This document shows, in pieces, positions 21,736 through 26,511 of a stretch of DNA of 59,022 bases (positions are counted from its first letter, which is position 1; each line of letters begins with the position of its first letter). Made by a program: the position numbers and the translations under genes. The stretch is from Acidobacteriota bacterium (GTDB taxonomy: Bacteria > Acidobacteriota > Vicinamibacteria > Vicinamibacterales > 2-12-FULL-66-21), in assembly GCA_016184105.1 (NCBI GenBank), contig JACPDI010000002.1, forward strand, positions 17,330 to 76,351, read 5' to 3'. The notes below the pieces were generated by a model. It saw only the letters and a program-made list of their open reading frames with translations. It had not been told where the DNA came from and did not search any database.

Positions 21736-22121
21736 TCGGGTGTCGGCAGGAACCGTTCGAGGCAGGCGGACAACGATTGGCGCGTGATCGGTTTCATGAG
21801 GGTGCCGTCCACGTCCAGCTTCGCCCCGTGTTGCTCGAGCGCCGCTTCGGTGCTCATCACGATCACCGGCGTGGAGGCGACGGCGGGCATCTCCTTGAGA
21901 TGCAACAGAAACGTCAGGCCGTCGATGCGCTCCATCATCAGGTCGAGCAGGATCACACGGGGGGCGAGCCCGTCGCGGAGCTGCTCCAGCGCCTGCAGGC
22001 CCGATGTGGCGGCCTTGACGCGAAACCCCAGCCGCTCCGCGATGACATCGATCAGCAGAAGCACCGATGGGTCGTCATCGACGACGAGCAGCGTCGGTGC
22101 GCTTTCCGGCTCGGTATTCAT
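21732..22121 (-). CDS. Single-domain response regulator
   Basis: A stand-alone CheY-like receiver of 129 residues: VVDDDPS gives the acidic pocket, VILLDLMMERIDG the phospho-acceptor Asp, VIVMSTEA the Ser/Thr and LMKPI the Lys-Pro. No output domain and no kinase nearby. It overlaps the alaX gene by four bases upstream and the pseudogene by four bases downstream, so it is in the queC-alaX operon. I picked the ATG at 22121 because it forms the ATGA overlap; a longer reading upstream is only a shadow of alaX. Confidence 0.88.
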   Translation of the reverse strand: MNTEPESAPTLLVVDDDPSVLLLIDVIAERLGFRVKAATSGLQALEQLRDGLAPRVILLDLMMERIDGLTFLLHLKEMPAVASTPVIVMSTEAALEQHGAKLDVDGTLMKPITRQSLSACLERFLPTPE

Positions 22122-23311
22122 GCGGCCTCCGCGGCGCGGACAACGAGCTGTCGCGCGGTCTCGAGAACGCCCGCGCCAGCCAGTCCGCCGGCCTGCGCCA
22201 ACTCCGGGCGCCCGCCGCCCCTTCCGCCGTGTGCCGCGACGAGCGCCTCGAGGGCCGTGGCCGCGTCGAACGCGACGTCGCCGGAGCGCGCCACGACAAT
22301 CAGGCCGCCGGCGGGGTTGAAAAGGATCGTCACCACGCCCGGCGAGGCGGCGACGGAGAGGGCCAGCGCCTTCAGGCCGGCCGCATCCCAGTCCGCCGTC
22401 TCGATGACGGCGCGCCACGGGCCGATCGCCGTTGCCCTGGACACCAGTGCCTGGGCCTCAAATCCGGCGAGCCTCTCCTGCTGCCCCTTGATCGTGCGCT
22501 GCAGCTCGCGCGATTCCGCCTGCAGCCGCGCGACGGCCTCGGGCAGCTCCACCGGCAGTACGGACAGCCGCCTGATGCATCCGGCGACCGTGTCCCGGAG
22601 CGCGCCGAACGCACCGAGCGCGCGCGCGCCGCACAGGAACTCGACGCGCAGGCCCCCCTTGTATTTCTCCGTGCCGCTGATGGCGATCACGCCGATGGCT
22701 CCGGTTCTCGCGACATGGGTTCCCCCGCACGCCGACACGTCGTAGCCATCGACGTCGACAATGCGGAGCCGGCCGGTGCGGGCAGGTTCCTTGCGCAGGG
22801 GCAGCCTCGCAGCCTCTTCCTCGCTGACCACGCGCACGCCAACGGGCCGGTCTTCCCACACGATCCGGTTCGCCTCACGCTCCACACGCGCCAGTTCGGC
22901 GCCCGGAACGTCACGCGCGAGGTCGATCGTGCTCCGGTCGGACCCGAGGTGGAAGCTCGCCGTGCGCGCGCCGGCCACCTTGTCGAACGCGGCCGACAAG
23001 ATGTGCTGCCCCGTGTGCTGCTGCATGTGCTCGAAGCGCCGCTCCCAGTCCACCGCACCGCGCACCGGGCCCTTCGCGATTTCGCGATCGAGCACGTGGA
23101 TCACCGCGCCATCGTCGCGATCGACCACGTCGACGACCTTCGCGGCGCCGAGCGTGCCGGTGTCGAACGGCTGACCGCCGCTCGTCGGATAGAAGGCGGT
23201 GCGATCGAGGATCGCCGCCGGCCTGCCCTCGTGCTCGGAGGTTTCGACGACCGACGCGTCGAATTCCCGGGCGTAGGCGTCCAGGTAGTAGATGCGTTCA
23301 GTGATGGACAC
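22118..23311 (-). CDS. alaX: Alanyl-tRNA editing protein (AlaX-type, with DHHA1 domain)
   Basis: The 397-residue protein resembles the editing half of alanyl-tRNA synthetase: an N-terminal beta barrel ([16 protein letters not shown]), the zinc-binding [11 protein letters not shown] and [10 protein letters not shown], then a coiled region and a C-terminal DHHA1 domain ([16 protein letters not shown]). It should hydrolyse serine or glycine wrongly attached to tRNA-Ala. There is no aminoacylation domain. The GTG start lies inside the last codons of queC, so it is co-translated with it. All three ligands of the zinc site that can be recognised are present. Confidence 0.9.
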
Positions 23312-23990
23312 GAGCGGTCAGTGGATCCTGCGCGCCCGCCTCCGCGAAGCCGCGGGCACGCAGCCGGCAGCTGTCGCAATGGCCGCACGGCGCGCCGTCC
23401 GGATCCGGATCGTAACAGCTGTGGGTCAGGCTGTAATCAAGGCCGAGCGAGAGGCCGGTGCGGATGATTTCCGCCTTTGTCATACGGAGCAGGGGCGCCT
23501 CGATCTGGATCGTCCGCCCCTCGGCGCCCGCCTTCGTGGCGAGCGCGGCCATCTGCTCGAAGGCGCGCAGGTATTCCGGCCGGCAATCGGGATACCCGGA
23601 GTAATCGACGGCGTTTGCCCCAATGACGATGGCGCGCGCCCCCACCACCTCCGCCCACCCGAGCGCCAGCGAGAGGAAGATCGTATTGCGCGCCGGGACG
23701 TACGTGGACGGGATGCGCGATTCGTCTTCGAGCGGCCGGTCCTTCGGCACCGGCCCGTGGCCGGTCAGGGCCGAGCCACCGACCGCATCCAGGTTGACGG
23801 AGATTTCCAGCCGTCGGGCCACGCCCAGCGCCTGGCACACGCGGCTCGCGGCCAGCAGTTCCTGGGCGTGGTGCTGGCCGTAGCGCACCGTCAGCGCGTA
23901 CAGCTCCGTCCCGCGCGCCTGGACGAGCGCCGCGGCGGTGTAAGAATCGAGCCCGCCGCTGAGGAGGACGACGGCGCGTGAGCGTGACAT
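23298..23990 (-). CDS. queC: 7-cyano-7-deazaguanine synthase (preQ0 synthase)
   Basis: The 230-residue enzyme converts 7-carboxy-7-deazaguanine to preQ0 with ammonia and ATP in queuosine synthesis. The PP-loop LLSGGLDS is at the N terminus, and the C terminus has the zinc site [19 protein letters not shown]. queA, a later step, is at 48139. I chose the ATG at 23990, which follows a TACAAT box by seven bases; an ATG nine bases further upstream would lie in that spacer. It is divergent from the selenoprotein gene and heads the operon queC-alaX-regulator. Confidence 0.93.
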
Positions 23991-24003: not shown

Positions 24004-24026
24004 GTATGTCGCGGCCGGAGGAACGC

Positions 24027-24362
24027 GTGGCGAAGCCAACGCTGTACTGGAAACCCACCTGAACGACCTGCCGCAACGCCAGAAGGTTTCTGGACGAGCA
24101 GCAGATCGACGTGGAAGAACGGGACATCAACCGGGACCCGCCAACGCGCGAGTTCCTCGAGCAGCACATCGACGCCACCCGCTTCCTCGATTTTGTCAGC
24201 ACCCGCAGCCCGGTGTTCAAGGAGCGGCCGCTGCCGAAGTCCAAGAAGGAGGCGATCGACCTGATGATGCAGCAGCCGAACCTTATCAGGCGGCCGATCC
24301 TGGTTCGGGGCTCGAAGGTGATTTTCGGGTTCGACAAGGACAAGTACCAGGAAGTTGGGTGA
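24027..24362 (+). CDS. ArsC/Spx-family thioredoxin-fold selenoprotein (in-frame UGA = selenocysteine)
   Basis: Reading from the GTG at 24027 gives YWKPT, then UGA at 24060-24062, then [10 protein letters not shown] and an uninterrupted frame to 24362 (111 residues). In ArsC/Spx relatives this is the CxxC-type redox site, YxxPxCxxCR; the first Cys is replaced by UGA, giving U12-x-x-C15. The downstream protein is well conserved in style ([29 protein letters not shown]), so the gene is not decayed. A hairpin with a GGU loop follows at the right distance. GGAGGA precedes the GTG; an in-frame ATG at 24006 is an alternative start. The redox substrate is unknown. selA, selB and selD are not in the window. 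Confidence 0.85.
24079..24093 (+). promoter_or_regulatory. Bacterial SECIS-like hairpin
   Basis: CCAGAAGGTTTCTGG forms a perfect stem (CCAGAA/TTCTGG) with GGT in the apical loop. The loop guanines lie 23-24 nt after the UGA, inside the spacing known for bacterial SECIS elements, and a GGU apical loop is as in E. coli fdhF. It is inside the coding sequence, where bacterial elements always are. Confidence 0.78.
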
Positions 24363-25287
24363 GATCCGCATCGGCACCTCCGGCTGGAGCTATCCAGCCG
24401 GCCAGGGGACCTGGAACGGCGTGTTCTACCCGCCGAAGGGGTCGCGCCCGCGCGGGTTCCGCGAGCTCGCCTTCTACGCCGAGCACTTCGACACGGTCGA
24501 GATCAACTCGACGTTCTATCGGCCGCCGTCCGCCGCGGCTGCCCGCAACTGGATCGAGCAGACGCCGCCCGGGTTCGATTTCTCGGTCAAGCTGTACCGG
24601 AAGTTCACACATCCCGAGATGTTCGTGAAGGCGACCGGCAGGGACCCGCACGATCTGGGCGCGGCAGACATCGACGAGTTCCGCGCAGGGATCGCGCCGC
24701 TCGCGGATGCCGGACGCCTGGGCGCGCTGCTCGCCCAGTTTCCCGCCAGTTTCAAGGACGATCCGGACGCGCGCGCGTACCTCGCGTGGCTCCTCGAGGC
24801 GTTTCGTGACTATCCGCTCGCGGTCGAGCTGCGGCATCGCAGCTGGAGCGACGCGATCGACCGAACGCTCGGCATTCTGGGCGAGTCGGGCGCCGCGCTC
24901 GTCCAGATCGACGAGCCGAAGTTCCGCCTGTCGATCCGGCAGACATTCAAGCCGAACACCCCGGGGCTTTTCTACATGCGGCTGCACGGGCGCAACGCCG
25001 ACGCCTGGTGGAGCCACAAGGCGTCCGAAGAGCGGTACGACTACCTGTACTCCGTCGACGAGCTGAAGCCGGTGGTGGAAACGGTGGGGGCCGCCGCGCG
25101 CGCGACGCGCAAGGCGTATGTCTACATGAACAACCACCACTCCGCGAAAGCGGTGGCCAACGCCGCAGTGCTGAAGCACGAACTGGGGCAGGAAGCCGGC
25201 GGGATCTACCTGCCCGAGTTCATCGAGCGTTACCCGGACGTGAAGGACATCGTGAAGGCCGCGCCTACTTCACATACATTCTTTTGA
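24355..25287 (+). CDS. DUF72 domain-containing protein
   Basis: The 310-residue protein begins [20 protein letters not shown] and contains [15 protein letters not shown], the hallmarks of the DUF72 TIM-barrel family, whose biochemical role is not established. The C-terminal [11 protein letters not shown] and [17 protein letters not shown] segments are also typical. The start is TTG, overlapping the selenoprotein stop by eight bases with AGGAAG directly upstream, so its expression may depend on readthrough of the upstream UGA. It overlaps the convergent cyclophilin gene by 23 bases. Confidence 0.85.
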
Positions 25288-25813
25288 TCACGTCCTCGGC
25301 CTGGATCTTGTCGACGACGTCCATCCCCGCTATCACCTGTCCGAAGATGACGTACTTCCCGTTGAGGCCGGTGCGGTCGCTGCGCATGATGTAGAACTGG
25401 CTGTCGGCCTGCGTCGGATCGCCGGAGTGGGCCATGCCGACCGCGCCACGTATGTGCGTTCGGCGCTTGGAGAACTCCGCCACGCCGACCGGCTTGCCGC
25501 TCCCCGACGCGGGGCCGCGCCCCCACATGTCCCTCTTGGTGAAATCGCGCGTCTGCGGGTCGCCCATCTGGATGACGAATCGCCCCTCGGCGCGATGGAC
25601 CCGGAGGCCGTTGTAGAAGCGCCGCTTCACGAGGGTGAGGATGTGGTCGACGGTCTTGGGCGCGTCTTCCGGATACGTCTCGAACTGGATCGCGCCGCGG
25701 CTCGTCTCGACGACCACGATCGGGCCCGCGCCGGGGGACTTCTTCACCGGTGCCGCGGCCTGGCCGGCCGCCGGCTGCGAGGCCAGCAACAGTGCGGTGA
25801 GTATGAGGAGCAT
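25265..25813 (-). CDS. Peptidyl-prolyl cis-trans isomerase, cyclophilin type, exported
   Basis: The 182-residue protein has a signal peptide (MLLILTALLLASQPAAGQA) followed by a cyclophilin domain: NGLRVHRAEGRFVIQMGDP, a bacterial-type variant of the FHRVI..F.IQGGD motif, AVGMAHSGDPTQADSQFYI and FGQVIAGMDVVDKI. It probably assists protein folding in the periplasm. It follows nth by eight bases. A TATAAT spanning the nth stop ends seven bases before the ATG, so it may also have its own leaderless promoter. Confidence 0.9.
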   Translation of the reverse strand: MLLILTALLLASQPAAGQAAAPVKKSPGAGPIVVVETSRGAIQFETYPEDAPKTVDHILTLVKRRFYNGLRVHRAEGRFVIQMGDPQTRDFTKRDMWGRGPASGSGKPVGVAEFSKRRTHIRGAVGMAHSGDPTQADSQFYIMRSDRTGLNGKYVIFGQVIAGMDVVDKIQAEDVIKRMYVK

Positions 25814-25821
25814 GGGACGGA

Positions 25822-26511
25822 TTATAGCGCCGCGCGCGGCTTGCCGACCTTCGTGACGCCGACCTTCGGGCACACGTCCGCGAGCACGCACCGGGTGCAC
25901 AGCGGGTAGACCGGCCGGCACACGTTCTGCCCCCACGTGACGAGATAGAGATTCACCAGCGGCCACCAGCGGCGTGCCGCGACCTTGTAGAGGGCGTGCT
26001 CGGTCTGCTCGGGCGTCCGCGTCAGCACCCATCCCATGCGGTTCGAGATGCGGTGCACGTGCGTGTCCACGCAGATGTTCGCGTGGCTCTGGTGCGCGAG
26101 GATGAGCACCAGGTTCGCGGTCTTTCGCCCGACGCCCGGAAGCGTGAGGAGTTCCCCCATCGTGTCCGGCACGCGGCCGCCGAAGCGCTCGAGAATCCGG
26201 CCGCACGCGGCTTTCACGTGGCGCGCCTTGTTGCGGTAGAAGCTGACGGGGTAAATGAGCTTGCGGATCGTGGGCACCGGGAGCCTGGCCATGCTCCGCG
26301 GCGTGCGCGCGACCCTGAAGAGCCGCTGCGACGCCGCGTGCGTCACCTCGTCGCGCGTCTGCGCGGAGAGCATCGTCGCGATGAGAACCTCGAAGGGATC
26401 GTCCCGGCTGTCCTCGGCGATCTTCTCCACGGCGGGCTCATCGAGGCCGTCGATCGCCTTCCCCAGGCGGCGCATGACGACGGAAACAGACGCGCCATTC
26501 GTCAGGACCAT
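25822..26511 (-). CDS. nth: Endonuclease III
   Basis: The 229-residue DNA glycosylase/AP lyase removes oxidised pyrimidines. The helix-hairpin-helix LLTLPGVGRKTANLVL contains the catalytic Lys, VDTHVHRISNRMGW the catalytic Asp, and the C terminus has the Fe-S pattern CRPVYPLCTRCVLADVC (C-x6-C-x2-C-x5-C). The N terminus up to about residue 12 is weakly conserved, so a later start is possible. It sits between the 2-hydroxyacid dehydrogenase and the cyclophilin on the same strand. Confidence 0.94.
   Translation of the reverse strand: MVLTNGASVSVVMRRLGKAIDGLDEPAVEKIAEDSRDDPFEVLIATMLSAQTRDEVTHAASQRLFRVARTPRSMARLPVPTIRKLIYPVSFYRNKARHVKAACGRILERFGGRVPDTMGELLTLPGVGRKTANLVLILAHQSHANICVDTHVHRISNRMGWVLTRTPEQTEHALYKVAARRWWPLVNLYLVTWGQNVCRPVYPLCTRCVLADVCPKVGVTKVGKPRAAL

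Follow-up and report, generated by a model that had tools for sequence, protein, structure and literature searches.

ArsC-like selenoproteins with selenocysteine (Sec) in a UxxC motif have been in print since 2006-2008, and the clade of the protein studied here, which is encoded in a stretch of 59,022 nucleotides of acidobacterial DNA (the window), is a further member of this set. NF041106 (ArsC_rel_Se_1), tabulated with UxxC as 'Arsenate reductase-like protein' in PMC13188914 and under COG1393 in PMC9312934, resembles the window protein in being, according to these tables, an ArsC-fold selenoprotein with Sec at the first position of UxxC; the window protein, however, reaches 30.1 bits with this model, below its cut-off of 85. 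Both kinds occur in the same order, because a locus from another of its families (L082, genome G050) scores 104.9 bits with NF041106, and has a TGA and a strong hairpin. The 'Arsenate reductase 2' of the GOS data (cd03032, UxxC, 42 sequences; PMC2398784, Table 2) and the 'ArsC-like' selenoprotein of Deltaproteobacteria (PMC1794560) are, as presented in the tables and excerpts of these papers, Sec-containing ArsC-domain proteins with Cys homologues, with UxxC in the GOS entry; they come from other sources than the window clade, and the comparison is one of descriptions only.

The 'Arsenate reductase' with UxxS (ArsC 1), which appears in the corresponding parts of PMC1088965 (Sargasso Sea) and PMC2398784 and as TIGR00014 in PMC13188914, shares with the window protein the ArsC fold and Sec as the nucleophile, but has Ser in the place of Cys15, and the window protein remains below the TIGR00014 cut-off (39.9 bits versus 106.05). 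Spx of Bacillus subtilis (3gfk, 1z3e, 3ihq) has the same fold, the same CxxC position, and the same STRS and RRP motifs; unlike the window protein it contains Cys rather than Sec, has a G52 segment and K62, and is longer by about 20 residues. As for acidobacteria, the deep-Sep paper (PMC12013277) includes, in the text available from it, one acidobacterium tested, with 3 known selenoprotein genes, and its main text contains neither 'ArsC' nor 'arsenate reductase'. Searches of the open-access literature found nothing that pairs a selenoprotein with Vicinamibacter, and for selenoprotein together with Spx they returned, judging by titles, only work on rice, functional food and horticulture.

The reading frame and the Sec/Cys column

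The window belongs to an assembly of 4.24 Mb, 96% complete (G000 in our analysis), and contains the following elements of the gene:

24017..24022, + strand: GGAGGA, Shine-Dalgarno-like, 4 nt 5' of the GTG start, read from the sequence
24027..24362, + strand: putative ArsC/Spx-like selenoprotein gene, 111 residues, U12xxC15 (frame reading, Pfam, TIGR01617, 34 close homologues with TGA)
24060..24062, + strand: internal UGA, read as selenocysteine 12 (only TGA, TGC or TGT at this column in 130 distinct sequences)
24069..24071, + strand: TGC, second Cys (C15) of UxxC (unchanged across all 32 rows of alignment A1)
24079..24093, + strand: candidate SECIS hairpin CCAGAA[GGU]UUCUGG, loop 24085-24087 (sequence, conservation of pairing)

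The frame opens with the start codon GTG at 24027 and closes with the terminal stop TGA at 24360-24362, so that the protein ends in ...QEVG; the TGA at 24060-24062 is its single internal stop. The initial annotation had placed an in-frame UGA on the first redox Cys of an ArsC/Spx-family protein, with UxxC replacing CxxC: the UGA does coincide with the first position of UxxC, and the family assignment is upheld by Pfam ArsC (6.8e-15), by TIGR01617 (92.3 bits, cut-off 75.05) and by the alignment with Spx. Among some distant Cys forms (for example L056, L057 and L070) it is C15 that is replaced.

Homologous loci were collected from 100 genomes of the order (our own included), from five named contigs belonging to acidobacterial metagenome-assembled genomes, one of them labelled gp6, and from 396 genomes of the phylum. 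Matches were found in 42 of the 100 genomes of the order; the 34 full-length ones with at least 55% identity all carry an internal TGA (one also a TAG), while two partial matches do not reach the U column. From a total of 137 loci, L074, L075 and L132 were dropped as unaligned at the U column, 134 were placed, and removal of 4 duplicates gave 130 distinct sequences. In these the codon at the column is TGA in 70, TGC in 43 and TGT in 17, with no other codon represented; since TGA was scored like Cys when the rows were placed, the placing leans towards the UGA column. The proposal that homologues should have Cys or UGA at this position is thus borne out in 130/130 placed sequences. A further 20 matches of the phylum search, mostly the weakest, were left out of the alignment, and 5 of them are listed with one TGA.

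The clade of the window consists of the window and 34 relatives that are 55-79% identical, with TGA in 35/35. The same grouping is recognized in the alignment scores, as the 35 distinct sequences with a score >300 (window included) all have TGA, and the best Cys row scores 225. In a larger tree of 128 rows, from which L051 and L076 were excluded, the clade comprises 34 rows, all of them Sec forms, on a branch with SH-aLRT of 99%. Over the whole phylum the best tree implies 14 changes between Sec and Cys, at least 7 of which are forced by the starred branches; this tree was a quick one, with few columns and several long branches, and its details are unsure. Both forms are found within the single genus g98. 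Since the column switches many times across the phylum, the family offers a natural experiment on keeping or dropping selenium. The clade itself represents a well-supported selenoprotein group, with members in roughly one third of the 100 genomes analysed from one acidobacterial order, and its genes are likely to be truncated by standard gene callers.

Such truncation bears on the reading in which the UGA is a true stop, leaving either an 83-residue product translated from 24111 or a pseudogene. An ORF of this length (24111-24362) is indeed present in the mechanical ORF list, as had been anticipated for standard gene calling, and relative L051 carries a further TAG; but a UGA shared by the window gene and its 34 close homologues, with conserved sequence on either side of it, at a column that otherwise holds only Cys, next to a constrained hairpin and in a genome with Sec genes (see below), makes this reading highly improbable. 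Reassignment of the genetic code, with the UGA read as Trp or some other residue, is scarcely conceivable: nothing was found in its favor, and against it the column alternates solely with Cys codons, TGA also terminates the window gene and several of its homologues, and a tRNA-Sec is present in the genome. Decoding of UGA 24060-62 as Sec is on these comparisons almost certain.

L051 (G044:C2:19793-20119, from a genome 97% complete) is a close homologue with the UGA and, 12 codons later, a TAG. Gene decay and assembly error are both possible in this case; the gene may be decaying, because of the extra TAG and because G044 has no SelB over the cut-off. A second group of loci (L104, L105, L118, L120, L127, L130, L131, L133-L135, L137, L139-L141, L145-L151) also has UxxC, with hairpins of its own; those of its members that were scanned lie closer to TIGR00014, the arsenate reductase model.

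The hairpin and the selenocysteine machinery

The perfect CCAGAA/TTCTGG hairpin with a GGU loop at bacterial SECIS spacing, which had been pointed out from the sequence, is confirmed at 24079-24093. It begins at the 17th nucleotide after the UGA, its loop occupies nucleotides 23-25, and the spacing between UGA and loop is 22 nt. The SECIS model as given in an excerpt of PMC13188914 calls for a loop of 3-9 nt, a stem of 4-16 bp, a G in the first two loop positions, a distance of 16-37 nt from the UGA, and an MFE of -7.5 kcal/mol or lower. With its GGU loop, 6 bp and 22 nt the window hairpin agrees with these figures; its MFE is -12.4 kcal/mol for 24070-24103 and -16.4 kcal/mol for 24063-24107, while the bare hairpin (24076-24096), at -7.4, falls slightly short of the limit. 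As stand-alone evidence we rejected the hairpin, as 15% of the TGA triplets in the window, counting both strands, score as well (185 of 1217). Since it is unremarkable by itself, the weight lies on the conserved UGA, the column, and the behavior of the hairpin in comparisons.

In these comparisons, the Arg codon in the stem is AGA in 24 and AGG in 11 of the 35 close TGA sequences (AGA/AGG in 35/35), versus 42/352 AGA/AGG and 310/352 CGN for the remaining Arg codons 3' of the UGA in the same genes. The third base of this codon pairs with the third base of the codon two further on, as A-U in 24 cases and G-C in 11, with no mismatch; these counts, like those of the codons, ignore kinship. On the tree there are 2 changes at each of the two covarying sites, and the independent pairs agree in 2/2 cases, which is too few for a test; for this reason we rejected the covariation as a set of independent events. 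The stem has one compensating pair, that is, a single pair that varies on both sides. Standard pairs fill 95.7% of the paired cells, against 23-62% when one strand is slid; a slide by -1 yields about the same covariation score (0.150 vs 0.148), but with 62% paired cells. In 500 shuffles, the paired cells and covariation score of the real alignment were never reached. The cells that fail to pair belong to the two outer pairs in one sequence each and to the innermost pair in 7.

When each hairpin was scored against synonymous recodings of its own gene (L073, which contains N, was excluded), the mean z was 1.62 for the close TGA sequences (n = 34), 2.12 for the distant TGA sequences (n = 35) and 0.12 for the Cys sequences (n = 60); individual hairpins surpassed the recodings at p 0.05 in 12/34, 19/35 and 7/60 cases, respectively. 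The hairpins of the distant TGA subfamilies differ from that of the window's clade, and many of them have a GGTC loop. Two Cys forms, L083 (TGT) and L128 (TGC), retain a hairpin like that of their TGA relatives in genomes with SelB: they are possibly relics of a recent change from Sec to Cys, L083 being a long branch.

Complete absence of the Sec machinery would speak against the selenoprotein reading, and the genome was searched accordingly: selA, selB, selD and the gene for tRNA-Sec are all present. SelA is over its cut-off, and is matched as two pieces (L002 and L003, G000:C4) in a locus that contains a run of N. SelB (C52) scores 356.3 bits, also over its cut-off. SelD (351.6 bits; L048, G000:C12:83064-83993) contains one in-frame TGA of its own, as Sec-containing SelD proteins do. 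The tRNA-Sec (C47) has 56.9 bits against a gathering score of 47, and ARAGORN types it as SeC(tca); this typing matters, because the tRNA-Sec model is less specific, and a tRNA-Ser of the same genome also exceeds the gathering score (48.5 bits). Among 14 control genomes, SelA, SelB and SelD are each over the cut-off in 2, and tRNA-Sec in 5.

Outside the order, SelB is over the cut-off in 33/33 tested genomes with TGA forms versus 22/46 with Cys forms only (Fisher 1.2e-7), a test that ignores kinship, the genomes without SelB being largely of one family, f38; it covered 80 of 88 genomes, with G218 unclassed and the 8 omitted ones all from genus g91 (Cys forms). Within the order SelB shows no significant association with the TGA form (29/35 vs 46/65, p 0.23), as it is common there. 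The six of 35 TGA genomes of the order without SelB over the cut-off are G006, G034, G044, G071, G080 and G099: in G071 and G080 SelB is in two pieces; G006, G044, G071 and G099 have matches to the tRNA-Sec family of 58-62 bits, and G034 and G080 have none over the gathering score.

Overall, the selenoprotein reading of 24027-24362 is strongly supported as far as sequence analysis goes: comparison demonstrates its coding potential, the Sec/Cys column, the RNA-level constraint, the Sec genes and a predicted fold, and from there we infer actual Sec insertion, an enzyme activity and a substrate. Ribosomes would begin at GTG 24027, SelB on the hairpin 24079-24093 would set Sec-tRNA(Sec) at UGA 24060-62, and the product would be a protein of 111 residues with the thioredoxin-like fold of ArsC/Spx and a U12-T-T-C15 active site.

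Fold and likely function

The AlphaFold2 model (alignment A1, 32 rows, TGA as Cys) has a pLDDT of 92.3. Its nearest structures by VIA-align are the ArsC-related 3gkx (Z 15.7, 2.0 A, 110 residues) and YffB 1rw1 (15.3), with the arsenate reductase 3f0i (Z 14.8) and Spx 3gfk (Z 14.5) further down; ranks 1-19 cover Z values of 13.1-15.7 over 107-111 residues, and consist of ArsC-related proteins, YffB, arsenate reductases and Spx. Foldseek places Spx at the top. For the predicted structure, therefore, this ranking of Spx, YffB and ArsC-related proteins alike gives no preference between a reductase and a regulator. As to sequence models, TIGR01617 (arsC_related), which NCBIfam names Spx/MgsR family RNA polymerase-binding regulatory protein, is the only NCBIfam model passed by the window protein; the divergent clade members L034 and L037 are below its cut-off (64.7 and 59.1 bits), and three clade members scanned against the Sec-specific NCBIfam models matched none of them.

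The family name invites the hypothesis of a transcriptional regulator of the Spx type, in which a Sec-Cys selenenyl-sulfide would replace the C10-C13 disulfide as the switch. Spx sequences are also the nearest in the PDB, R60, an activation residue of Spx, is matched within the STRS of the window protein, and the redox CxxC at the N-terminus is represented by UxxC at the position of the first Cys of Spx. Against a regulator, NF002459, the model for Spx, gives a score well short of its cut-off (59.3 versus 123), Spx does not stand out from YffB or the ArsC-related proteins in the structural comparison, and the 111 residues of the window protein compare with 131-132 in most Spx chains listed. 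In the alignment with Spx, moreover, K62 is replaced by Pro and the segment of G52, a residue that contacts alpha-CTD, is gapped. The mutations G52R and K62E impair Spx activation, according to an excerpt of PMC2801614. We regard a regulator of this type as distinctly unlikely.

A function as arsenate reductase, with Sec12 attacking arsenate, agrees with the ArsC fold of the model and with the Pfam ArsC match, and R60 and R89-P90 correspond to two arginines of the ArsC site. The low TIGR00014 score mentioned above argues against it; so does the FGFD of the clade, in a place where the ArsC-like rows L104, L128 and L131 have ARP, whose Arg is presumably catalytic, and the immediate neighbors (QueC, DUF72 and cyclophilin) include no ars gene. 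This function appears unlikely.

The absence of the Spx G52 segment and K62, together with FGFD in place of the ARP of the ArsC-like rows, favors a general oxidoreductase. The protein is likely to be a cytosolic selenol/thiol oxidoreductase, as predicted from these features, and we think it probable that it acts as an oxidoreductase rather than as a regulator. As such, Sec12 would attack a disulfide or another oxidised substrate, Cys15 would resolve the resulting selenenyl-sulfide, and a thiol donor would recycle the protein.

Neighboring genes

The genes on either side are:

22118-23311, - strand: AlaRS-like editing protein (tRNA_SAD, DHHA1; AlaX-type), adjoining queC
23298..23990, - strand: queC, divergent; 36 nt separate its start codon from that of the selenoprotein gene (PF06508; TIGR00364 over cut-off)
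24355..25287, + strand: DUF72 (YecE-like) gene, with a TTG start within the last codons of the selenoprotein gene (PF01904, 2.1e-59)
25265-26206, - strand: cyclophilin-type peptidyl-prolyl isomerase, convergent with DUF72

The initial annotation had noted a downstream gene that begins eight bases inside the end of the selenoprotein gene, and this is the DUF72 gene, which overlaps by 8 nt from its TTG at 24355. Of the 35 close loci, 32 have enough downstream sequence, and in 28 of these the flank contains DUF72 downstream in the same orientation; L072 and L073 were outside the neighbor search. In 12 of these 28 loci, that of the window among them, the mechanically picked candidate start of DUF72 that lies nearest to the homology is at or before the selenoprotein stop. 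The conserved pairing suggests that the two genes are likely to lie on one transcript. A DUF72 match is present in 71 of the 100 relatives, twice as many as have the selenoprotein gene (35): DUF72 is therefore independent of the selenoprotein, and we rejected it as an obligate partner. Among the open-access matches listed for the function of DUF72/YecE, titles and the beginnings of abstracts gave nothing on point.

The initial annotation had also suggested that readthrough may control the downstream gene. In the 12 loci where the candidate DUF72 start is at or before the stop, ribosomes halting at the UGA of codon 12 would not hand over to DUF72. It is conceivable, if improbable, that selenium status sets the translation of DUF72 by way of SelB-dependent readthrough and that the protein could be a Sec-based Spx switch.

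For queC, the flanks of 33 close loci were searched, and 25 of them contain a match. Several relatives have cyclophilin matches close to their selenoprotein gene.
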